From IMG/VR virus record IMGVR_UViG_3300032307_000622, positions 1 through 64,000 of that record: DNA of 64,000 bases, one strand, 5' to 3'. Positions 22,161 through 42,136 of this stretch are shown in pieces. The notes under the pieces were generated by a model. The model was given only the letters and a program-made list of their open reading frames with translations, made no database searches and was not told where the DNA came from. Made by a program: the position numbers and the translations under genes. The stretch's first letter is position 1. The number at the start of each line of letters is the position of its first letter. The stretch is from a virus.

Positions 22161-23363
22161 GTGTCGAAAAAAATTGCTATTGTCGGAAGAGGCACTGCTG
22201 GTAGCCTTGCAATTAGCAGCCTATCACGTAGGTTTGCAGACTATGAAATTGAGTGGTACTTTGATCCCAAAATCCCTACTCAGGCGGTAGGAGAAGGCTC
22301 CACCATTACCGTTCCAAGAAACCTATTCCTTGGTTTTGGCTTTACTTATGAAGACTTTTTTCGTGTAGACGGAACAGTTAAAACTGGAATCTATAAAAAG
22401 AACTGGGGCCTAAAGAATGAGGTTTTTCGCCACGACTTCCGTCCTCCAGCATCTGGGATTCACTTCTCTGCCGTAGGCATACAAAAATACATCATGGAAC
22501 AGTCTGAGAAAATTCTTGGTGATAGGCTTAAGATAATTCCAGAACTAGTTGACTACAATAATATTGATGCAGACTATATTTTTGATGCCAGCGGTGCTCC
22601 AAAAGACTATGAAAAATTTTATAAGTCTGATTATATTCCAGTTAATGCTACATATGTGACCCAGTGCTACTGGGACTTTCCAAGGTTTGACTATACCCTG
22701 GCCATAGCTTCTAAACATGGATGGGTATTTGGTATTCCGTTACAGAATAGGTGCTCCATTGGCTATATGTACAATAGCAATATAACAACCAAAGAAGAGA
22801 TTATTGAAGACGTTAAAGGGATTTTTGAAGAGTGGAATCTGACTCCAAGCACGGATACAATTAGTATTAACTTTAATAATTATTATAGAAAAGAAAACTA
22901 TGAAGATGGTGGAAGAATTGCTCATAGTGGAAACTCTTCCTTTTTCCTAGAACCACTTGAAGCCACATCTACTGGTCTTATGACCAAGATTCAATCAGAT
23001 GCTGGAGATGTGTGGAGTGGTTTGCAGACAGCAGAAGAGGCAAACCAGGCTTATTTGGATGAACTAAGAAATATTGAGCTGATGATTATGTTGCACTATG
23101 CATCTGGATCTAAGTTCAAAACAGATTTTTGGGAGTTTGCCCAGGAACGTGGAATTAGAAAGATAGAAAGCTACAAAGATAATGCAAGATTTAGAGAGAT
23201 ATTTGAGGCCGTGAAAGATGGAAAGAGTTTTTACGACTCACTAAGCTTGCCACAAAGCATTGTTGAATCTGGTGACTTTGGTAGTTGGCCAGCTGCTGCA
23301 TACATGGTAAATATGGAAAAACTTGGCGTAAAGCCAACAGTAGATAAGATACTTAATCATTAG
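22161..23363 (+). CDS. FAD-dependent tryptophan-halogenase-family enzyme
   Basis: GTG start with RBS AAGGAG. 400 aa. The FAD motif GRGTAG is at residues 9-14, VGEGSTITVP at about 43-52, the catalytic-Lys region GTVKTGIYKKNW near 70-81, WVFGIPL in place of the WxWxIP motif, and FFLEPLEATSTGLM near 256-269. It is shorter than bacterial tryptophan halogenases (about 520 aa). It would need a flavin reductase from the host. Substrate unknown; a role in decorating host or phage molecules is speculative. Confidence 0.85.
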   Translation: MSKKIAIVGRGTAGSLAISSLSRRFADYEIEWYFDPKIPTQAVGEGSTITVPRNLFLGFGFTYEDFFRVDGTVKTGIYKKNWGLKNEVFRHDFRPPASGIHFSAVGIQKYIMEQSEKILGDRLKIIPELVDYNNIDADYIFDASGAPKDYEKFYKSDYIPVNATYVTQCYWDFPRFDYTLAIASKHGWVFGIPLQNRCSIGYMYNSNITTKEEIIEDVKGIFEEWNLTPSTDTISINFNNYYRKENYEDGGRIAHSGNSSFFLEPLEATSTGLMTKIQSDAGDVWSGLQTAEEANQAYLDELRNIELMIMLHYASGSKFKTDFWEFAQERGIRKIESYKDNARFREIFEAVKDGKSFYDSLSLPQSIVESGDFGSWPAAAYMVNMEKLGVKPTVDKILNH

Positions 23364-30070: not shown

Positions 30071-30506
30071 CCCACATAAGGTCATAAACGAAGATTTAAG
30101 TACCCCCAAATATTATCGTAAAGACATAATCATATGGTCTTAGAATCCATTTTAGAGCTGTTTAGAGCATGTTTTTGATGTATTTTTAGATATAAAGTTC
30201 TTACTGATTATATAAAGATATATCGTAAAGTGGAGTAAAGTGGATGATAGTGGAGAATGGAGCCCCATTAATCTTAAGCCTCGTAATGATTTTTTCCAAA
30301 TACCCATATCCCCATATCACACATATCCAAATTTGTCAAGTATTTTCTATATAAATTTTATGCAAAAATATCCAAATATCGTAATGTTATTTAAATAAAC
30401 ATATATCAAATATTCTAAAATATAATAACTTTCTGGGAAAATTTTAATAGCGATCGTAATGTCATATCAGCACATGTATTTGTATTTATACTAGGGATAT
30501 TTGATA
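30071..30506. other. AT-rich convergent intergenic region with CGTAA motifs
   Basis: No gene seen in 436 bases. It separates the plus-strand left part from the minus-strand block. Five CGTAA sites in one orientation (about 30117, 30223, 30282, 30380, 30455), several in TATCGTAA context, lie in A/T runs. A TTCTGGGAAAA motif at about 30431 recurs upstream of later minus operons. It could be a replication or regulatory region; no terminator stands out. Confidence 0.5.
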
Positions 30507-32653: not shown

Positions 32654-32682
32654 ATTGTACCAAAAATGGTTGGGGGTGTCAA
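32654..32682 (-). promoter_or_regulatory. Minus-strand promoter
   Basis: TTGACA, 17 bp, TACAAT. A GGGGGTGT/ACACCCCC inverted repeat extends from the spacer upstream to about 32713, a possible operator or terminator of the preceding operon. Confidence 0.75.
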
Positions 32683-34722: not shown

Positions 34723-34847
34723 TTTACTTTCTCCAACATCTCTGCCAACTTCTTCAGTTGCTCAGGGGTAAGGTTGTTCAATATATCTTCGTTGATTAGG
34801 TTGCTATTTGTCCACATAGAAACCATTGTAGCGTTAGGGTCTGACAT
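34719..34847 (-). CDS. Small helical protein (42 aa)
   Basis: ATG directly follows the upstream stop. INEDILNNLTPEQLKKLAEML. Its first bases match the ATGTC promoter box, with TACAAT 17 bp on, so an internal promoter is possible. Confidence 0.6.
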   Translation of the reverse strand: MSDPNATMVSMWTNSNLINEDILNNLTPEQLKKLAEMLEKVK

Positions 34848-35426: not shown

Positions 35427-35455
35427 ATTATGACATGACCCTCAGACATTTTGTA
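35427..35455 (-). promoter_or_regulatory. ATGTC-box promoter 1
   Basis: ATGTC TGAGGGTCATGT CATAAT. The -35 position is TACAAA, not TTGACA. Confidence 0.7.
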
Positions 35456-35585
35456 GTTTCTGGGAAAAAAGTTATGCGGTCGTAATTATTTTTTTATCTT
35501 AATCTATATGATTATTGAAAACCTGGGCGGCTCAATTTCGATCCATGAATGGAGGGCAGTTTATACTCATGCCCAGGAGTGTTGC

Positions 35586-36590
35586 TTAGTTAGCTAAAAC
35601 CAACTGAAGCAGTCTGTTCTTTTCAGCAGTTGTCACTGGGTCAAAACCAGAAGCAGCTGCTAGGATAGATTCGTTAGAACCACCACGAGCAGAGCGGTAC
35701 CAGTCTAGTCTTTCAGTTAGAGCGTTGAAAGCTCCCCACTTAGTTCCAGCGATTGTGTTGTTATACTCACCAACATAGATTGCGTTGATTAGGTCAATCT
35801 TATCGTTGTGCTTTTTGAATGAGCCCTTAGAGTCTTTTTCTGGGGCAGGGTAAGCGAGTTCAACAATCTTGTCAAACTGTGCCTTGGTGATTTCAGTTTC
35901 AATCATAGCCTTAGCCATCTCATCAAACTTATCCATGTAAGCGTTAGCCAAACCAAGAGCCTCTCTAGCTTGCTGAACTTTGCCAGAAGCTGTTGCGGTG
36001 TGTCTAATCTTGAATGACTGCTTGACACTTCCACCTCTGCCACGATTACCAAGAGCAAGGTTTAGAGTGTTAGCACATACAACACGAACTGGTGTGATAC
36101 TAGCTTGAATGGCAACAGAACCATCATGGCTAGTGTTGATTAGAAGATAAGTGTTTACCTTATCAGACACGCCGTTAGGGTCTAGGATAGTCTCACGCTC
36201 AAGAGCAAGAGAACCAAAAACCTGTCTGCCACCCTTGATAGAGCCAGCAGTCTCCCAACGACCTCCGCCATCTAGCATCAGGTCTCCGAAATCAAACAAG
36301 TCTTCATTCTGAAGCGGAACATAACGCTCACCAACTACGCCAAGAACATCATTTTGTTCTGAGTTGAATGGGTTAGTTCTAGTTACGAATGAGTAACCCT
36401 TGTCTGAAGCAAAACCATCAGGAATTGCTACATCTTCCAAGCGAACATTCCAGTTAGACAAGTGTGCCAAGTCTAGCATCTCTGCTGTGGTTACTTCCTT
36501 GTCAAAGACTGTGCCTAGCCCATGCCAAGCTGGCTGGCGAAGGGAAGCAAAAGCGGTCTGTCCGTTTACGGTCTCTAGCTCATGTGCCAT
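35586..36590 (-). CDS. DUF932 phage/plasmid-type protein
   Basis: 334 aa. AHELETVNGQTAFASLRQPAWHGLG at the start, NTYLLINTSHDGSVAIQASITPVRVVCANTLNLAL at about 147-181, and a C-terminal WGAFNALTERLDWY match the DUF932/TIGR03299 family found on phages and plasmids. The molecular role is unknown. It is the largest gene of the minus block and has its own consensus promoter. Confidence 0.88.
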   Translation of the reverse strand: MAHELETVNGQTAFASLRQPAWHGLGTVFDKEVTTAEMLDLAHLSNWNVRLEDVAIPDGFASDKGYSFVTRTNPFNSEQNDVLGVVGERYVPLQNEDLFDFGDLMLDGGGRWETAGSIKGGRQVFGSLALERETILDPNGVSDKVNTYLLINTSHDGSVAIQASITPVRVVCANTLNLALGNRGRGGSVKQSFKIRHTATASGKVQQAREALGLANAYMDKFDEMAKAMIETEITKAQFDKIVELAYPAPEKDSKGSFKKHNDKIDLINAIYVGEYNNTIAGTKWGAFNALTERLDWYRSARGGSNESILAAASGFDPVTTAEKNRLLQLVLAN

Positions 36591-36628
36591 GTTTTTCTAC
36601 TTTCTGTTAGGGGATTTCTAATAATCTA

Positions 36629-36657
36629 ATTATAGGGTTACCCTCCGACATTGTCAA
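36629..36657 (-). promoter_or_regulatory. ATGTC-box promoter 2
   Basis: TTGACA ATGTC GGAGGGTAACCC TATAAT. Perfect hexamers plus the box, driving the DUF932 gene. Confidence 0.9.
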
Positions 36658-36817
36658 GGATTCAGGGCAAAATAATTAATCTTCGTAAATAACAGTTTGG
36701 TAACAAAATGGGGGCCGCCCAAATCCACCCACTCAGTATTTGTGATCACGAGATCTTCAGCTTTTGTGTGGGTGGCTGGGTGAGCAGTTTAGCGACATAC
36801 TCAGGTCGTTTGTCTGT

Positions 36818-37264
36818 TTAGATAAGTTCCATTACAGACGAGTAAGATGAAGCAGAAACTTCCTCTTGCGTAGTCATACGAAGCACCTTGAGATTACGCT
36901 CTAGGATTTCCTTACGAGTTGAGTGTTCCCTACCAAACCACTCACGCTGGTTAGGCTTGCTTGGCTCAGTTGGCTTCTCTCCCAACCCAATTAGTTCTGG
37001 GTCTAGGACAAGTTCCAGCCTACCATTGTAGTTGGTTGAGATACGAATAACGCTATCGTAGTCATAACCAATCTTGGCAGAGTTGTTCTTGAGATACTCA
37101 GAAACAGCACTAGCAACCTTCTTCTTGTATTCCTCAGTTGCCAACTCATACTGCTTACGCTCATCTGCGTAGTTTGCTACTGCCTCGTCAATCTTCGCAA
37201 TAGACTTCTCAATGTCTGCGATTAGAACGGATACAGGGATTTTTACGGACATAGTTCTAGCCAT
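36818..37264 (-). CDS. Coiled-coil hypothetical protein (148 aa)
   Basis: Helical (LIADIEKSIAKIDEAVANYADERKQYELATEEYKKKVA), then a beta part with NGRLELVLDPELIG. Unknown. 227 bases between its stop and the DUF932 gene hold a hairpin CCACCCAC/GTGGGTGG (36725-36775). Confidence 0.65.
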   Translation of the reverse strand: MARTMSVKIPVSVLIADIEKSIAKIDEAVANYADERKQYELATEEYKKKVASAVSEYLKNNSAKIGYDYDSVIRISTNYNGRLELVLDPELIGLGEKPTEPSKPNQREWFGREHSTRKEILERNLKVLRMTTQEEVSASSYSSVMELI

Positions 37265-37296
37265 AATTTATTTCTACTTTCTTTCAGGGTAATTAC

Positions 37297-37325
37297 ATTA
37301 TACATAGGGGGTAGGACATTTATTT
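37297..37325 (-). promoter_or_regulatory. ATGTC-box promoter 3
   Basis: ATGTC CTACCCCCTATG TATAAT, driving 36818-37264. Confidence 0.75.
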
Positions 37326-37373
37326 AGTTGTGGTGAGCAGTTTATCTTGACTTGCTCAGGTCAGAGGAGGTGA

Positions 37374-37520
37374 TTACTTTACAGTAGTCCAGCGAGGCTG
37401 TCCGTTTACATCAAGGCGAACACGAGCAGAGCCACTAGGGTTCTTTACGATTTCCTTGATAGTTCCAACGACACCAGACTTAGCGGTGGTGAACTGTGAG
37501 CCAACAGTTAGATTTACCAT
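37374..37520 (-). CDS. Small SH3-like protein (48 aa)
   Basis: VNLTVGSQFTTAKSGVVGTIKEIVKNPSGSARVRLDV reads as a small beta barrel with basic residues, perhaps nucleic-acid binding. RBS GGAAGC. Confidence 0.65.
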   Translation of the reverse strand: MVNLTVGSQFTTAKSGVVGTIKEIVKNPSGSARVRLDVNGQPRWTTVK

Positions 37521-37584
37521 TTTGCTTCCTTTTCCGCCCCAGAGGGACTGTTTTGATTTATTACCAACCTTTGTTGATAGGTCT

Positions 37585-37613
37585 ATTGTAGCCTAACCCT
37601 CCGACATTATCAA
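37585..37613 (-). promoter_or_regulatory. ATGTC-box promoter 4
   Basis: TTGATA ATGTC GGAGGGTTAGGC TACAAT. Confidence 0.85.
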
Positions 37614-37725
37614 GCATTGTTTTATAACATTTCTGGGGAAAATTGTTATACTTCGTAACTTGACAAAATGTTGATCTTGGGGCGACACAAAACCCCCAGG
37701 ATGTCAAGTCCCAGGGGTAGTGTGT

Positions 37726-38274
37726 TTAGACTGCTTGTTCTTCTTTGAGGTACGAGTATACTCCGCACTTTGCTCTCTCACAATAGTCCTCATTAGTTAT
37801 CTCACGGACCTCTTGGAAAGTCAGAGTCAAAGTATTGTCTCCGTAGGTTGTAGCAAAGGTTTGGTTATCAAGATTTATGATGTAGATACCCTCACAGAAT
37901 AAATCATCATTCTTGAACTCTGGGTCTAGCACTAGCGGCACAGGGTCAGTAGCGTTGACAATTACCTCAAGAATACCAGCACCAGTATCTCTAGTTAGGC
38001 TAGGATAGTCCTTACTAAACCTCTCGCCATCTTCCAGACTTCCCATACCATCTTCTCTAAAGTAGTTGGCATAGATTTTCTTTAGCTCCTCATCACTTGC
38101 CTGATAGGTCAGGTGTAGGTCAAAGTTTTTCTCTAGCTTTTCGATGTTCGTTGGCTTAGACAAAAAGTTTACAATAGTGATACCCTGCCCACTTGGATAG
38201 TGGTCCCATTGACCATACTGGGCTACTACTGTCTTTCCGTTGTAAATTACCTCTGTAATTCCTCTAGTTCCCAT
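37726..38274 (-). CDS. Conserved MGTRG protein (182 aa)
   Basis: The N-terminus GTRGITEVIYNGKTVVAQYGQWDHYPSGQG is a recurrent phage/bacterial motif of unknown role. ATG 38274 was chosen because the longer reading begins inside the promoter. Acidic C-terminus. Confidence 0.8.
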   Translation of the reverse strand: MGTRGITEVIYNGKTVVAQYGQWDHYPSGQGITIVNFLSKPTNIEKLEKNFDLHLTYQASDEELKKIYANYFREDGMGSLEDGERFSKDYPSLTRDTGAGILEVIVNATDPVPLVLDPEFKNDDLFCEGIYIINLDNQTFATTYGDNTLTLTFQEVREITNEDYCERAKCGVYSYLKEEQAV

Positions 38275-38302
38275 TTTCCTACTTTCTTTTGTTGGTGAGA
38301 TT

Positions 38303-38331
38303 ATTATACATTGGGGGTCAGACATTTAGGT
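38303..38331 (-). promoter_or_regulatory. ATGTC-box promoter 5
   Basis: ATGTC TGACCCCCAATG TATAAT, driving 37726-38274. Confidence 0.75.
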
Positions 38332-38362
38332 TCTTAATTCGTAACTGTTATAAAGCTGTGAT

Positions 38363-38391
38363 CTGGGCCGCCCTAAAGGTGGCCAGTTTTT
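38363..38391 (+). terminator. Plus-strand terminator hairpin
   Basis: CTGG-CCGCC, loop, GGTGG-CCAG with one bulge, followed by TTTTT. It points along the plus strand although both flanking genes are minus. A TATAAA at 38349-38354 lies just upstream. Confidence 0.6.
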
Positions 38392-38407
38392 CGTCATGGC
38401 CAGGACG

Positions 38408-38463
38408 TGGTCCACATGTTAGAAAGGATAAGAAGTGTGGACCATCTTGCCCCTATGCAAGAT
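38408..38463. other. Two hairpins in 260-base gap
   Basis: TGGTCCACA (38408-38416) pairs with TGTGGACCA (38436-38444), and ATCTTGC (38444-38450) with GCAAGAT (38457-38463). No gene is seen in 38275-38534, so a structured RNA on either strand is possible. Confidence 0.45.
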
Positions 38464-38534
38464 CTATTTTCTGGAATATACAAATATGAGACATGCTATT
38501 CCTAGGAAGTACAGAGCCCAGTGATACAGCTCCA

Positions 38535-39254
38535 TTACTTTTTACTCGCACTAAACAATATGTCATTGCGAGCAAATACGCATTGTCCGCAGGTAACGCA
38601 GGCGGAACCCTTGTCGCTAATTAGCGGAAGTTTCTTAGCATTCTCAGGGCACGGTATTGCAGACTTGACGGTGATAGACAACATCCGCTCTTTACCGCTA
38701 GCAAAATTGTTAGCAAGATATGCAAGCTTTACGCCACTATCTTTCTTTAGCTTTTCTGCCAGCTGCCAGTTGTCATCATCAGTTGAGAAGTATAGTGCAA
38801 GGTTGTCAACATCGCTAAGAATTGGAACAGCAAAATCTGACCTCGTGTATACCCAGAATTGAATTTGGGGGAATGCCTTGATTACATTCTTCCAGGCCTT
38901 AGTATAGTCTTCACTAAAGAAGTCACCATCCCAGTGAATTCGAAACAGCTTTTCTGCATTACGCTTGTCACAATCTTTCTCAAACTCTTGAATCATTTGA
39001 TAAATTAGAATTTCCATTTCCAATTCATCTGCATTACGTAGCAGGTCCCAATTGTTTATGAGAACAGCTTTTACGCCCTTGTAGACTTTTTCGAGCTTGC
39101 CTGCATAACAGACTTTCTCGCATACACTTGTTGCTCCAGGGCAGGAATAAGCTTTCCCTGAAGGAAGGCCAAAAGTGTTCGCAATAGTTGGCGTTTTACC
39201 ATTTGGAGAGACTGCATTAGTTACCTTTCGGTCTTTAGAACGGATTAGGGGCAT
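38535..39254 (-). CDS. GP88-like Cys-rich phage protein
   Basis: 239 aa; ATG 39254 behind AAAGGA. ANTFGLPSGKAYSCPGATSVCEKVCYAG (about 26-53) and C-terminal IPCPENAKKL...CVTCGQCVFAR give seven Cys in two clusters. The first motif resembles mycobacteriophage GP88-family proteins. FRIHWDGDFFS and FWVYTRSD are conserved-looking. An Fe-S or zinc site is likely; the function is unknown. Confidence 0.7.
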   Translation of the reverse strand: MPLIRSKDRKVTNAVSPNGKTPTIANTFGLPSGKAYSCPGATSVCEKVCYAGKLEKVYKGVKAVLINNWDLLRNADELEMEILIYQMIQEFEKDCDKRNAEKLFRIHWDGDFFSEDYTKAWKNVIKAFPQIQFWVYTRSDFAVPILSDVDNLALYFSTDDDNWQLAEKLKKDSGVKLAYLANNFASGKERMLSITVKSAIPCPENAKKLPLISDKGSACVTCGQCVFARNDILFSASKK

Positions 39255-39276
39255 TAGGGGTCCTTTCAACAGTTAT

Positions 39277-39305
39277 ACTATAGCAGGGGGTACCGACATC
39301 TATAG
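39277..39305 (-). promoter_or_regulatory. ATGTC-box promoter 6
   Basis: ATGTC GGTACCCCCTGC TATAGT, overlapping the end of the next gene upstream. Confidence 0.7.
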
Positions 39306-39584
39306 CTCTTCGTAGTATACCCAACCATCTAAGTGGTGAGCCTCTATGATAGCGTGAACAGGGGCAGCGGTAAGTCCTCTATAGCCAATACCCTCAGGAA
39401 GTCCAACTAACTTATCAAACTCACCCTCATTAGCTAAGTCAATAGCCTGAATACAAACAGGTACCATAGACTTAGGTACAGGGGGGAAGTGATTAGAAGT
39501 TAGGTGCCACTCAATAGCTTGCTCTAGTGTAATTGAACCAATCTCAGCTAGCTCTCTAAATTCTGTTGCGTGTAGTGAACCCAT
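39300..39584 (-). CDS. Hypothetical protein (94 aa)
   Basis: Begins GSLHATEFRELAEIGSITLEQAIEWHL. TAATG overlap with the upstream gene. Unknown. Confidence 0.65.
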   Translation of the reverse strand: MGSLHATEFRELAEIGSITLEQAIEWHLTSNHFPPVPKSMVPVCIQAIDLANEGEFDKLVGLPEGIGYRGLTAAPVHAIIEAHHLDGWVYYEEL

Positions 39585-39745
39585 TACTCTACCTCTTCCG
39601 CTTCGGCAACATACCATTCACCCTCATCACCATCATTGATAAGGTTAGACTTACTTAGATACTTGTTAGCCTTTTCATAGGCCTCTTCTTCATTTTTAGC
39701 ATTGACAATAATGAATCCGTCATAAGCAACAGAATACTTTCCCAT
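39584..39745 (-). CDS. Small acidic protein (53 aa)
   Basis: GKYSVAYDGFIIVNAKNEEEAYEKANKYL, the same strand-strand-helix plan as 34588 and 35209. TAATG overlaps at both ends. Confidence 0.65.
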   Translation of the reverse strand: MGKYSVAYDGFIIVNAKNEEEAYEKANKYLSKSNLINDGDEGEWYVAEAEEVE

Positions 39746-39888
39746 TACTTTACCTTTCTTGTTGAGGGGTGTTGAACTCTAATAGCATAGCACCTACCAC
39801 AGACATTGTCAAGCAGGTGGCCGTACAAGTTTTCTGGTCTAATTAGTCTTTGGCAGTCTGTACAGTTATAGGTTTTCTTTGATAGCAT
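39745..39888 (-). CDS. Zinc-ribbon miniprotein (47 aa)
   Basis: CTDC and CGRC 21 residues apart form a zinc ribbon. A TTGACA-ATGTC-TATGCT promoter match (39784-39812) lies inside it and would serve the genes below. Confidence 0.6.
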   Translation of the reverse strand: MLSKKTYNCTDCQRLIRPENLYGHLLDNVCGRCYAIRVQHPSTRKVK

Positions 39889-40018
39889 TTCGTCTATTTT
39901 CACTTCTTGTGCCTTTCTTTGGCTTAGGGGTTATTACAGTGTGCTTAGACTTTAGCATAGAGTGAAACAACGCTTGACTCTCAGCCTTGCGTCTTGCTTC
40001 ATTTCTTTTTCCTAACAT
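39866..40018 (-). CDS. Basic miniprotein (50 aa)
   Basis: MLGKRNEARRKAESQALFHSM... with many Lys/Arg. TAAGAT is 6 nt before the ATG (leaderless from promoter 8). It overlaps the next gene by 23 bases in another frame. Confidence 0.55.
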   Translation of the reverse strand: MLGKRNEARRKAESQALFHSMLKSKHTVITPKPKKGTRSENRRNAIKENL

Positions 40019-40024
40019 ACTAAA

Positions 40025-40053
40025 ATCTTAGCATAACCCTCTGACATTTTGGG
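40025..40053 (-). promoter_or_regulatory. ATGTC-box promoter 8
   Basis: ATGTC AGAGGGTTATGC TAAGAT. Confidence 0.65.
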
Positions 40054-40131
40054 AAAATTCCTGGGGCATTTTTAATAGACTACGTAAAGTTATTTCTAGA
40101 TCAGAATTGGGGCGGCACAACCAACGGACAT

Positions 40132-40151
40132 TGTCAAGTGCGACACGCCGT
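40132..40151. repeat. TGTCAA-N4-GACACGCCGT repeat, copy 1
   Basis: Interrupted palindrome TGTC/GACA plus a fixed CGCCGT tail, 13 bases past the stop of the minus gene at 40165. Confidence 0.75.
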
Positions 40152-40164
40152 AGTTGTGAAAGTT

Positions 40165-40272
40165 TTAGAACGGTGGTTGGTTTTTGCGGTATCCAATTCC
40201 GTGAGCAATCACATACACAACCGCAATTAGAATTAGGTCAATCATTAGGTTGAATCCGTTGTAAAAAATCAT
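40165..40272 (-). CDS. Single-TM miniprotein (35 aa)
   Basis: NLMIDLILIAVVYVIAHGIGY is one membrane helix. RBS AGAGGAAAACTAA. ATG directly follows the upstream stop. Confidence 0.6.
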   Translation of the reverse strand: MIFYNGFNLMIDLILIAVVYVIAHGIGYRKNQPPF

Positions 40273-40389
40273 TTAGTTTTCCTCTCTTGTTGTGAATAGG
40301 CTACCAACACCCTCAGACATTTTATCTTCTGAGAGCATTAGGTCAATTTGGAAAATTAGGGTTTCTAGTTCTTCTACTGATAGGCTCAC
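40273..40389 (-). CDS. Miniprotein (38 aa)
   Basis: GTG overlaps the upstream stop (GTGA), RBS GGGAGGGGGACAA. SLSVEELETLIFQIDLML. An ATGTCTGAGGGT box lies within it (40316-40320) with a poor -10. Confidence 0.5.
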   Translation of the reverse strand: MSLSVEELETLIFQIDLMLSEDKMSEGVGSLFTTREEN

Positions 40390-40556
40390 TTGTCCCCCTC
40401 CCACTCTAGGATTAGTTCTGCGATACGCTTGGCATCTTCTAGTGGCACATTAGGCATTAGGTATCCAACCATTCTCGCATAAGGGTATTGAGCCTTAGTC
40501 TTTAGAACTGCTAGGGCTGAGTCTAGTAGTTCGTGTGATTCTCTGTTGTAAGCCAT
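40386..40556 (-). CDS. Hypothetical helical protein (56 aa)
   Basis: NRESHELLDSALAVLKTKAQYPYARMVGYL. RBS AAAGGAAAATAA. First gene after promoter 10. Confidence 0.6.
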   Translation of the reverse strand: MAYNRESHELLDSALAVLKTKAQYPYARMVGYLMPNVPLEDAKRIAELILEWEGDK

Positions 40557-40582
40557 TTATTTTCCTTTCTTCTGATACTTAG

Positions 40583-40611
40583 AATCTAGCATAGGGGTAT
40601 GACATTTTAGA
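40583..40611 (-). promoter_or_regulatory. ATGTC-box promoter 10
   Basis: ATGTC ATACCCCTATGC TAGATT. Confidence 0.65.
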
Positions 40612-40756
40612 CTAGTTCCAGATACTCTTCTGGAAAATCTTCGCCAAGATAACTCCTGGCATCATCTAGGGGCATTAGTCCCTTGTAGTCATTACACTCG
40701 TGGCAAACATAGTCATTGACTAGGTTCATACAAAACACACAAATTGTTTCAGTCAT
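40607..40756 (-). CDS. Zinc-ribbon miniprotein (49 aa)
   Basis: CVFC and CHEC 12 residues apart (rubredoxin-like knuckles), then an acidic helix. Promoter 11 (40786-40814, ATGTC TGAGGGTTATGC TAAGTT) is upstream. Confidence 0.65.
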   Translation of the reverse strand: MTETICVFCMNLVNDYVCHECNDYKGLMPLDDARSYLGEDFPEEYLELV

Positions 40757-40760
40757 TTAT

Positions 40761-40946
40761 TTAGTTTCCTTTCGTTGATAGTTCTAACTTAGCATAACCC
40801 TCAGACATTTTCTTGGGCAACACGCTGTAGTGATAGGGCAGGTGGTTTGCGTCCCACTGCTTGCGGTCTAGGTAGTAGCTAGTGCTTGTTTCTTGGACAT
40901 AGCCACAGCCTTTACATTCAGTTTTACGCCACATTCTTCTACTCAT
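40761..40946 (-). CDS. Zinc-knuckle protein (61 aa)
   Basis: RRMWRKTECKGCGYVQETSTSYYL with one CxxC. Its 3' end contains the ATGTC box of promoter 11, so the last residues may not be under protein selection. Confidence 0.6.
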   Translation of the reverse strand: MSRRMWRKTECKGCGYVQETSTSYYLDRKQWDANHLPYHYSVLPKKMSEGYAKLELSTKGN

Positions 40947-40971
40947 TTATTCCTTCTTTCTAACTACTAAA

Positions 40972-41000
40972 AACCTATCACGACCCTACGACATTTTGGG
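40972..41000 (-). promoter_or_regulatory. ATGTC-box promoter 12
   Basis: ATGTC GTAGGGTCGTGA TAGGTT. Confidence 0.65.
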
Positions 41001-41117
41001 GACATTTAGGGGTGTGTCGTGATACTTGTTATCATTTTGTTATAATTCTGGGGGGTCTAGATCTAGTGTCTTAAATTGATCTGGGTACTAAATGTGGGCG
41101 GCACACAAAAGCGGATC

Positions 41118-41136
41118 TGTCAAGCAGACACGCCGT
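41118..41136. repeat. TGTCAA-N3-GACACGCCGT repeat, copy 2
   Basis: Same layout as copy 1, 14 bases past the stop of the minus gene at 41151. Confidence 0.75.
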
Positions 41137-41150
41137 AGATTTAGAATTTT

Positions 41151-41261
41151 CTAGTGAATCTCACCATACTCATTCCAGCATGACTCACAGCCATACTCAT
41201 CTTCTTCTACTACGAAGACTTTCTCTACTACTACATCGCATAATTCACAAACTGAAAACAT
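41151..41261 (-). CDS. Zinc-ribbon miniprotein (36 aa)
   Basis: CELC and CESC 17 residues apart; otherwise acidic. Unknown. Confidence 0.6.
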   Translation of the reverse strand: MFSVCELCDVVVEKVFVVEEDEYGCESCWNEYGEIH

Positions 41262-41328
41262 TTGTTATCCTTTCTTTTATTTATCTTTATTTATCTTTAT
41301 ACTTATACTCTACTCCCTATTGTCCCTT

Positions 41329-41347
41329 TGTCAAGTTGACACGCCGT
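41329..41347. repeat. TGTCAA-N3-GACACGCCGT repeat, copy 3
   Basis: Here TGTCAAGTTGACA is a perfect odd palindrome. On the minus strand TTGACA stands 16 bp before TAGAGT, so this copy overlaps the promoter of the gene at 41151. Confidence 0.75.
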
Positions 41348-41371
41348 TATTTTTATAACTTTTTGGTAACA

Positions 41372-41488
41372 CTACCTGCTAGTGCTTTCGCAGTAGAGGC
41401 ATCCACCATTTACAGTTTCTGGAACTGTTGAGTGGAAGTCACAGACATAAGGCCTGCCTGTGGTTTCTATCTTTTGAATCTTTATCAT
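41372..41488 (-). CDS. Cys-containing miniprotein (38 aa)
   Basis: VCDFHSTVPETVNGGCLYC has a CxxH...CxxC set likely to bind zinc. Confidence 0.6.
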   Translation of the reverse strand: MIKIQKIETTGRPYVCDFHSTVPETVNGGCLYCESTSR

Positions 41489-41512
41489 TTTTTATCCTTT
41501 CTTTATACTATT

Positions 41513-41541
41513 ACTCTATAAAGGGGGTCTGACATTTTGGG
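41513..41541 (-). promoter_or_regulatory. ATGTC-box promoter 13
   Basis: ATGTC AGACCCCCTTTA TAGAGT. Confidence 0.65.
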
Positions 41542-41608
41542 GGATTTTTAGGGGTGTTTTATAGAATGTTACTATTTTGTTATAAACGTCGCCACCTTTC
41601 GGTGGGAA

Positions 41609-41627
41609 TGTCAAATCGACACGCCGT
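41609..41627. repeat. TGTCAA-N3-GACACGCCGT repeat, copy 4
   Basis: Ends 3 bases from the stop of the minus gene at 41631. Preceded by the hairpin CCACC-TTTC-GGTGG. Confidence 0.75.
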
Positions 41628-41630
41628 GTT

Positions 41631-41804
41631 TTAGAAATTTTCTTTGTATAGCAAGTGAGTGATCACAGCAAACAAAGAAGCTACAACAACAAAGCCAGTG
41701 CCCAAGACCAGGCCATACATTATGAATCCATTGAGTGGAAAAAACCACATTGAAAAAATTGCGGTAAGTATTGAAGCAATTGTTAGAGTTAGGGTTGTTC
41801 TCAT
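41631..41804 (-). CDS. Two-TM small protein (57 aa)
   Basis: TLTIASILTAIFSMWFF and MYGLVLGTGFVVVASLFAVI are membrane segments. TAATG overlap upstream. Confidence 0.65.
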   Translation of the reverse strand: MRTTLTLTIASILTAIFSMWFFPLNGFIMYGLVLGTGFVVVASLFAVITHLLYKENF

Positions 41805-41896
41805 TAGTTATCCTTTGCTAGTTCTGTTTCTAATACTACAATAGAGGCAATAGCCTTGTCAAATTCTTCCCAAGTGTCAAAAGTTAGAGTTATCAT
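41804..41896 (-). CDS. Miniprotein (30 aa)
   Basis: ITLTFDTWEEFDKAIASIVVLETELAKDN. TAATG overlap at both ends makes it credible despite its size. Confidence 0.55.
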   Translation of the reverse strand: MITLTFDTWEEFDKAIASIVVLETELAKDN

Positions 41897-42087
41897 TACC
41901 AAGCCCTTCTAGTTCCAAGTGCCTTAGCAACCTTGATTAGTCCGTTGATTTCGTTGATTAGTTCCCAACTAGGGTCATCAGAGATAGACATTAGCAAGTC
42001 AATCTCATCTTCTACAGCCTGTAGATTTAGGAGATTTACCTTAGCGTATCTAGTTAGGCTATCTGTTGGGGTTGTGTATCTTTTCAT
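41896..42087 (-). CDS. Hypothetical helical protein (63 aa)
   Basis: LTRYAKVNLLNLQAVEDEIDLLMSISDD. First gene of a three-gene overlapping operon behind promoter 14. Confidence 0.65.
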   Translation of the reverse strand: MKRYTTPTDSLTRYAKVNLLNLQAVEDEIDLLMSISDDPSWELINEINGLIKVAKALGTRRAW

Positions 42088-42107
42088 TGTTTATCCTTTC
42101 TATCTAG

Positions 42108-42136
42108 ATACTAGCATAAACCACCGACATTTTAGT
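42108..42136 (-). promoter_or_regulatory. ATGTC-box promoter 14
   Basis: ATGTC GGTGGTTTATGC TAGTAT. Confidence 0.65.

Follow-up and report, generated by a model that had tools for sequence, protein, structure and literature searches.

Promoters of actinobacteria that respond to DNA damage independently of LexA and RecA (RecA-NDp promoters) carry the motif tTGTCRgtg-8 nt-TannnT (PMC5656591), which in mycobacteria takes the form TGTCGG or TGTCAG followed by 10xN and TA-3xN-T, with its direction being essential (PMC8151990). RecA-NDp promoters are activated by PafBC, whose WYL domains mediate its own activation by single-stranded DNA (ssDNA) (PMC11804915; PMC10936776). As the two papers describe, these promoters are made up of a -26 element and a -10 element, and PafBC wedges itself in next to region 4 of sigma-A, separating it from the promoter DNA; there it reads the -26 element while region 4 is held off the -35 position. 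Here we describe a family of 15 promoters in a 64,000-base window (bases 1-64000 of the 116,302-base IMG/VR virus record IMGVR_UViG_3300032307_000622), in which a TGTC box lies at a fixed distance upstream of the -10 element. We consider it probable (roughly 0.7) that these are phage promoters of the RecA-NDp type, driven by the PafBC of the host through sigma adaptation.

The original prediction had placed 14 ATGTC boxes on the minus strand, and every one of them is there. It also held that TAnnnT begins exactly 17 nt 3′ of the start of each box, which is the case at 13 of the 14 sites, but the box at 35445 is followed by CATAAT instead. ATGTC and TAnnnT occur together at offset 17 on 19 occasions in the full record, and 14 of these are listed sites or an additional match at 34847. 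Other offsets from 8 to 29 give 3-10 matches nearly everywhere (mostly about 6), with 15 at offset 28, and the excess at offset 17 lies in 34.8-42.1 kb on the minus strand. Within this cluster, TGTC was observed at -16 from TAnnnT 15 times against 1.3 expected. On a position weight matrix (PWM) trained on promoter sites of related viral loci, the 15 window sites (the 14 listed plus 34847) score 21.8-30.2 bits, compared with 10.2 bits for the best site outside the family in the entire record and with Markov controls in which each 64 kb yields 0.4 sites that exceed 14 bits. The match at 34847, previously described only as starting a gene, is real but is a full promoter (24.8 bits) and thus the fifteenth member of the family. 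With the 17-nt geometry, the box would span -29 to -25 relative to a predicted start site 29 nt past the A of the box. A minus-strand open reading frame (ORF) lies downstream of every window box (15/15), and each box is followed by the -10, a start-site signature, a short leader and the ORF, in most cases preceded by a purine-rich ribosome-binding site. Two of the boxes overlap an assigned ORF and the other thirteen lie outside; from the predicted start sites, messages from 40047 and 34847 would be leaderless. Judged by their sequence, the 14 sites and 34847 are all real promoters.

The same architecture is evident in related viruses, for which we used 80 viral loci recovered with the PHROG 1221 protein encoded at 35586-36590 (72-93% identity); counts over these relatives include kindred sequences and are not independent. 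Box promoters are present in nearly all 80 loci, where ATGTC-17-TAnnnT occurs 909 times on the coding strand, against 18-138 times at other offsets and 63 times on the reverse strand with the offset unchanged, and PWM sites above 14 bits number 1043 forward and 36 reverse. Boxes of the form AATGTCnG[AT]GG have a -10 in place in 366 of 390 cases (~94%). The logo from 829 unique sites consists of TGTC at -28 to -25, R (68%), G (78%), T or A, and GG or CC, then TAtAaT, with a pyrimidine-A start signature (T/C 84%, A 79%) 29 nt past the box. The commonest continuation of the box is GTGG (292 sites) and an extended -10 TG is found at 527 sites, while the logo has no TTGACA signal, the hexamer being present at 31 of the 829 sites. 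At the orthologous promoter of the PHROG 1221 gene, the box is present in 66 of the 80 relatives and the bases between the motif elements are variable. A division of the boxes into two classes, GAGGGT and ACCCC, had been proposed, but GAGGGT, GTGGT and GACCC types interchange at this promoter, and because types alternate at one orthologous promoter they are not separate regulons.

In order to compare the box with the RecA-NDp motif, we searched the 80 relatives for both literature forms. TGTC[AG]GTG-N8-TAnnnT was found 309 times, against 0-35 times at the remaining gaps in the range 3-14 and 3 times on the reverse strand, and TGTC[AG]G-N10-TAnnnT was found 611 times, against 3-40 times at other gaps from 6 to 14. 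We also applied the strict pattern to 12 records of 100-117 kb, of which 11 had matches, 89 with the correct spacing in all and one with an extra base. Most matches of a record fell into a single cluster on one strand, and a few records had an isolated outlier. An IMG/VR scan with literature-type patterns (TTGTCAGTGGT or ATGTCAGTGGT-N6-TAnnnT) identified ~100 contigs with at least three such promoters on one strand. The RecA-NDp promoter of SCO6735 from Streptomyces coelicolor, with its sequence taken from a primer (PMC5087735), scored 12.7 bits on the phage PWM, a value not reached in a set of 200,000 random sequences of matched GC content. The phage family thus has the TGTC core with R-G, the spacing to TAnnnT, the single direction and the dispensable -35 of RecA-NDp promoters, and its closest likeness is to recA P1 and SCO6735, which share the TGTCRG(tg) core, the 8-nt (10-nt) spacing, one direction and the general absence of a -35. 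As far as sequence goes, the phage box is the known RecA-NDp/PafBC promoter motif at identical spacing and not a new motif.

There are also differences. The phage set comprises ~15 promoters of a phage module, whereas RecA-NDp/PafBC promoters serve DNA-repair genes, and several features of the boxes themselves weigh against the assignment. Just 7 of the 15 window boxes fit strict TGTC[AG]G (12 of 15 fit TGTCnG), and at the position before TGTC, which is t in the host consensus, the phage family shows a strong preference for A. The GG at box positions 8-9 is often swapped for CC, which is a phage feature, and hybrid promoters with both TTGACA and the box exist, whereas PafBC promoters are described as being without a -35. 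Furthermore, the Mycobacterium smegmatis motif was reported not to be conserved in Streptomyces venezuelae (PMC9380542).

The proposal that ATGTC replaces the -35 contact agrees with the data, as most sites are without a -35 and several box-less orthologues of the PHROG 1221 promoter carry TTGACA instead. TTGACA had been noted at only some sites, and this is so: it accompanies the boxes at 36647 and 39802, with TTGATA at 37603, and the other window sites have no -35. In many relatives TTGACA lies directly 5′ of the box at the PHROG 1221 promoter, and in several box-less orthologues it lies at 17-bp spacing, as would be predicted were the box a substitute for the -35. Across the 80 loci, TGTC is absent from 240 of 286 TTGACA-17-TAnnnT promoters and present in 46. 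Because of the PHROG 1221 orthologues and the TGTC-poor TTGACA promoters, the box and the -35 appear to give access to a single -10 either as alternatives or stacked together. Elsewhere in the window, downstream of the box cluster, box-less classical TTGACA-17-TACAAT promoters are located at 32682 and 32188 on the minus strand.

In the mechanism we propose, each promoter would combine a -26 element (TGTC-R-G, about -28 to -23) with a sigma-A -10, mostly with no -35. As ssDNA builds up in the infected cell, possibly when the phage genome enters or replicates or when host DNA is degraded, it would be bound by the host PafBC heterodimer (winged helix-turn-helix and WYL domains), which would then slot in between the promoter and region 4 of sigma-A and recruit the housekeeping polymerase. 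A leftward block of ~15 small early-type genes would in this way be tied to the DNA-damage sensor of the host and not to a phage activator. We infer host PafBC as the reader of the box, ssDNA as the trigger and induction by damage. With slightly better than even confidence, we extend this to a whole family of actinobacterial phages in which a terminal-repeat-type block would be under a host ssDNA-activated activator, with ssDNA as the switch and without the need for an activator or sigma factor encoded by the phage.

No WYL domain was found in this phage record or in 23 related phage records, and no Sigma70_r2 domain was found in 12 phage records, which points to a host factor. A phage sigma factor was considered and rejected, with none among the 12 records. 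The original prediction had allowed for a phage or a host activator; the absence of these domains and the host-type motif favor the host, and the idea of a phage-specific new box is not supported. WhiB, a marker of actinophages (PMC10202952, PMC6802176), is encoded by this phage and by 12 of 12 relatives tested, and had been named as a candidate for the factor. However, Streptomyces phage Samisti12 and phage Trina are annotated with WhiB and the canonical box is absent from the segments of them that were examined, so WhiB is not supported because the box does not track its gene. A WhiB 66% identical to that of the phage is encoded on contig CANGYR010000020.1 of a Chitinophagaceae metagenome-assembled genome, which is probably a mis-binned phage contig. 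The host is probably a low-GC aquatic actinobacterium.

Another host regulator could read the same promoter type, either a second WYL activator (SiwR-like, a PafBC paralogue) or a ClpR/ClgR-type regulator, although we regard this as unlikely. SiwR likewise acts via a -26 element (PMC10693628), and recognition of the P1 motif by a ClgR regulator has been reported (as cited by PMC5656591). The SiwR-dependent dinS promoter of M. smegmatis therefore resembles the phage promoters in using a WYL-domain activator through a -26 element, but that element is a GGA triplet at a single operon, whereas the phage motif has TGTC and fits PafBC in sequence and spacing. It is decidedly unlikely that a phage activator without a WYL or sigma domain, such as the WhiB-like protein or an uncharacterised small protein, acts at the box in the manner of T4 MotA. 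The geometry is akin to T4 middle-mode promoters (MotA/AsiA sigma appropriation), where an activator box takes the place of the -35 contact immediately 5′ of an ordinary -10, and besides the WhiB present in 12 of 12 relatives there are many small phage proteins without a family match. Still, the spacing of the phage motif equals that of the host motif to the base and the WhiB-annotated phages Samisti12 and Trina have no canonical box in their examined segments. The box sequence also differs from that of T4, the putative activator here would be a host protein, and no phage sigma-remodelling gene was identified.

Two further explanations dispense with an activator. The boxes could be repressor operators, similar to stoperators, over ordinary sigma-A promoters, as dozens of short asymmetric sites in small-gene clusters recall the arrays of cluster A mycobacteriophages and some of the promoters have a good -35. 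Cluster A stoperators bind repressor and lie away from promoters, whereas the boxes described here nearly always have a -10 at one exact spacing (~94%) and free boxes are rare. Most of the promoters also lack a -35 and, unaided, would be weak, and this explanation is very improbable; a stoperator array as such was rejected, since the sites are not promoter-independent (366/390 with the -10 in place). The least probable explanation is that the box is a mere preference of the host sigma-A polymerase at strong early promoters, with no regulator added. The extended -10 TG is common (527/829) and Streptomyces relatives join TTG at the -35 with TGTC, but TTGACA-17-TAnnnT promoters in the same loci are mostly without TGTC (46 with, 240 without), and because of this absence TGTC is not general to these sigma-A promoters.

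The timing of host PafBC-driven expression can be considered from the location of homologous genes. The PHROG 1221 and GP88-family genes have homologues in the same order in Samisti12, where both genes are part of a terminal repeat of 10,666 bp that is identical at the two genome ends. In the well-studied large phages T5 and SPO1, terminal repeats carry the first-expressed genes. If terminal-repeat genes come first here as well, no phage activator would yet be available when the promoters fire, which would favor a host factor, and by this analogy the gene block may be early. The likeness to middle-mode promoters claimed in the original prediction is apt for the mechanism, with a box around -26 taking over from the -35 contact, but "middle" timing is doubtful given the Samisti12 homologues. 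By eye, six contigs of the relatives have their right-hand end 4.5-5.0 kb beyond the 3′ side of the PHROG 1221 gene and the remaining ends are scattered, which hints weakly at direct terminal repeat boundaries. Among Streptomyces phages, several terminal-repeat promoters of Stanwilliamsviridae (Samisti12, Angela, Mildred21) and promoters of Mandalore have TGTC 12 nt before TAGACT, a distance equal to that in the window family, with homologous genes nearby, but differ in having TTG at the -35 and no RGTG after TGTC, and are a partial match only. A GC-rich dyad conserved 5′ of genes, GCGCCCGGCGCACAAGATG...CATCTATTCTTGT, also recurs ~10 times in Mandalore. The Loccivirinae phages Karp and Annadreamy use plain TTGACA promoters.

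The fifteen promoters, all on the minus strand, are described here in the direction of transcription. The promoter at 42108..42130 runs from ATGTCGGTGG to TAGTAT (26.4 bits) and precedes an ORF at 42087-41896 (63 amino acids), with a predicted start site at 42101 and a leader of 14 nt that contains AAAGGA. It is followed by promoters at 41513..41535 (ATGTCAGACC to TAGAGT, 26.1 bits; ORF 41488-41372, 38 amino acids) and 40972..40994 (ATGTCGTAGG to TAGGTT, 23.6 bits; ORF 40946-40761, 61 amino acids). The promoter at 40786..40808 (ATGTCTGAGG to TAAGTT, 28.5 bits) sits inside the 3′ end of the preceding ORF and is upstream of ORF 40756-40607 (49 amino acids). Those at 40583..40605 (ATGTCATACC to TAGATT, 24.3 bits) and 40298..40320 (ATGTCTGAGG to TAGCCT, 24.0 bits) precede ORFs 40556-40386 (56 amino acids) and 40272-40165 (35 amino acids), respectively. 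At 40025..40047, ATGTCAGAGG to TAAGAT has the score of 30.2 bits and the message for ORF 40018-39866 (50 amino acids) is possibly leaderless. The promoter at 39784..39806 combines a TTGACA -35 with ATGTCTGTGG and the -10 TATGCT (23.5 bits), upstream of ORF 39745-39584 (53 amino acids).

The promoter at 39277..39299 (ATGTCGGTAC to TATAGT, 23.6 bits) precedes ORF 39269-38535, which belongs to the GP88 family (PF17338, 3e-55), and that at 38303..38325 (ATGTCTGACC to TATAAT, 25.8 bits) precedes ORF 38274-37726 (182 amino acids). TTGATA and ATGTCGGAGG are combined with the -10 TACAAT at 37585..37607 (29.3 bits; ORF 37520-37374, 48 amino acids), and ATGTCCTACC to TATAAT is found at 37297..37319 (22.4 bits; ORF 37264-36818, 148 amino acids). 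The promoter of the PHROG 1221 gene (ORF 36590-35586, 334 amino acids, matching PHROG 1221 at 7e-100) is located at 36629..36651 and consists of TTGACA and ATGTCGGAGG with the -10 TATAAT (27.2 bits). The promoter with the -10 CATAAT is at 35427..35449 (ATGTCTGAGG, 21.8 bits; ORF 35400-35209, 63 amino acids). At 34825..34847, ATGTCAGACC to TACAAT (24.8 bits) precedes ORF 34817-34719 (32 amino acids), whose message is possibly leaderless, and ORF 34722-34588 comes second.

Other repeated elements were identified among these genes. ACGGCGTGTC-n3/4-TTGACA occurs in four minus-strand copies between small genes (41618-41627, 41338-41347, 41127-41136 and 40142-40151), with an obvious -10 (TAGAGT) only at the 41347 copy, and ACGGCGTGTC is also present in 44 of the 80 relatives. 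Repeats of 35 nt with 63-71% identity, CTGGGGAAAAA...TTCGTAAT, are found among minus-strand genes at 30426, 30568, 31596, 33910 and 35452. A tryptophan-halogenase-like gene (PHROG 2928, 2e-62) is located at 22161-23363 of the window.

Phages are known to provoke or exploit the SOS response via LexA. A search of the open-access literature, mostly by title and abstract, found no description of a phage module on PafBC-type promoters. If true, a phage module placed on the LexA-independent, ssDNA-sensing PafBC would be a new coupling of phage expression to host physiology, and changes in PafBC would be predicted to alter the growth of such phages. Hundreds of natural PafBC-type promoters would help to define the tolerance of the -26 element, and would offer a direct test of sigma adaptation beyond mycobacteria.

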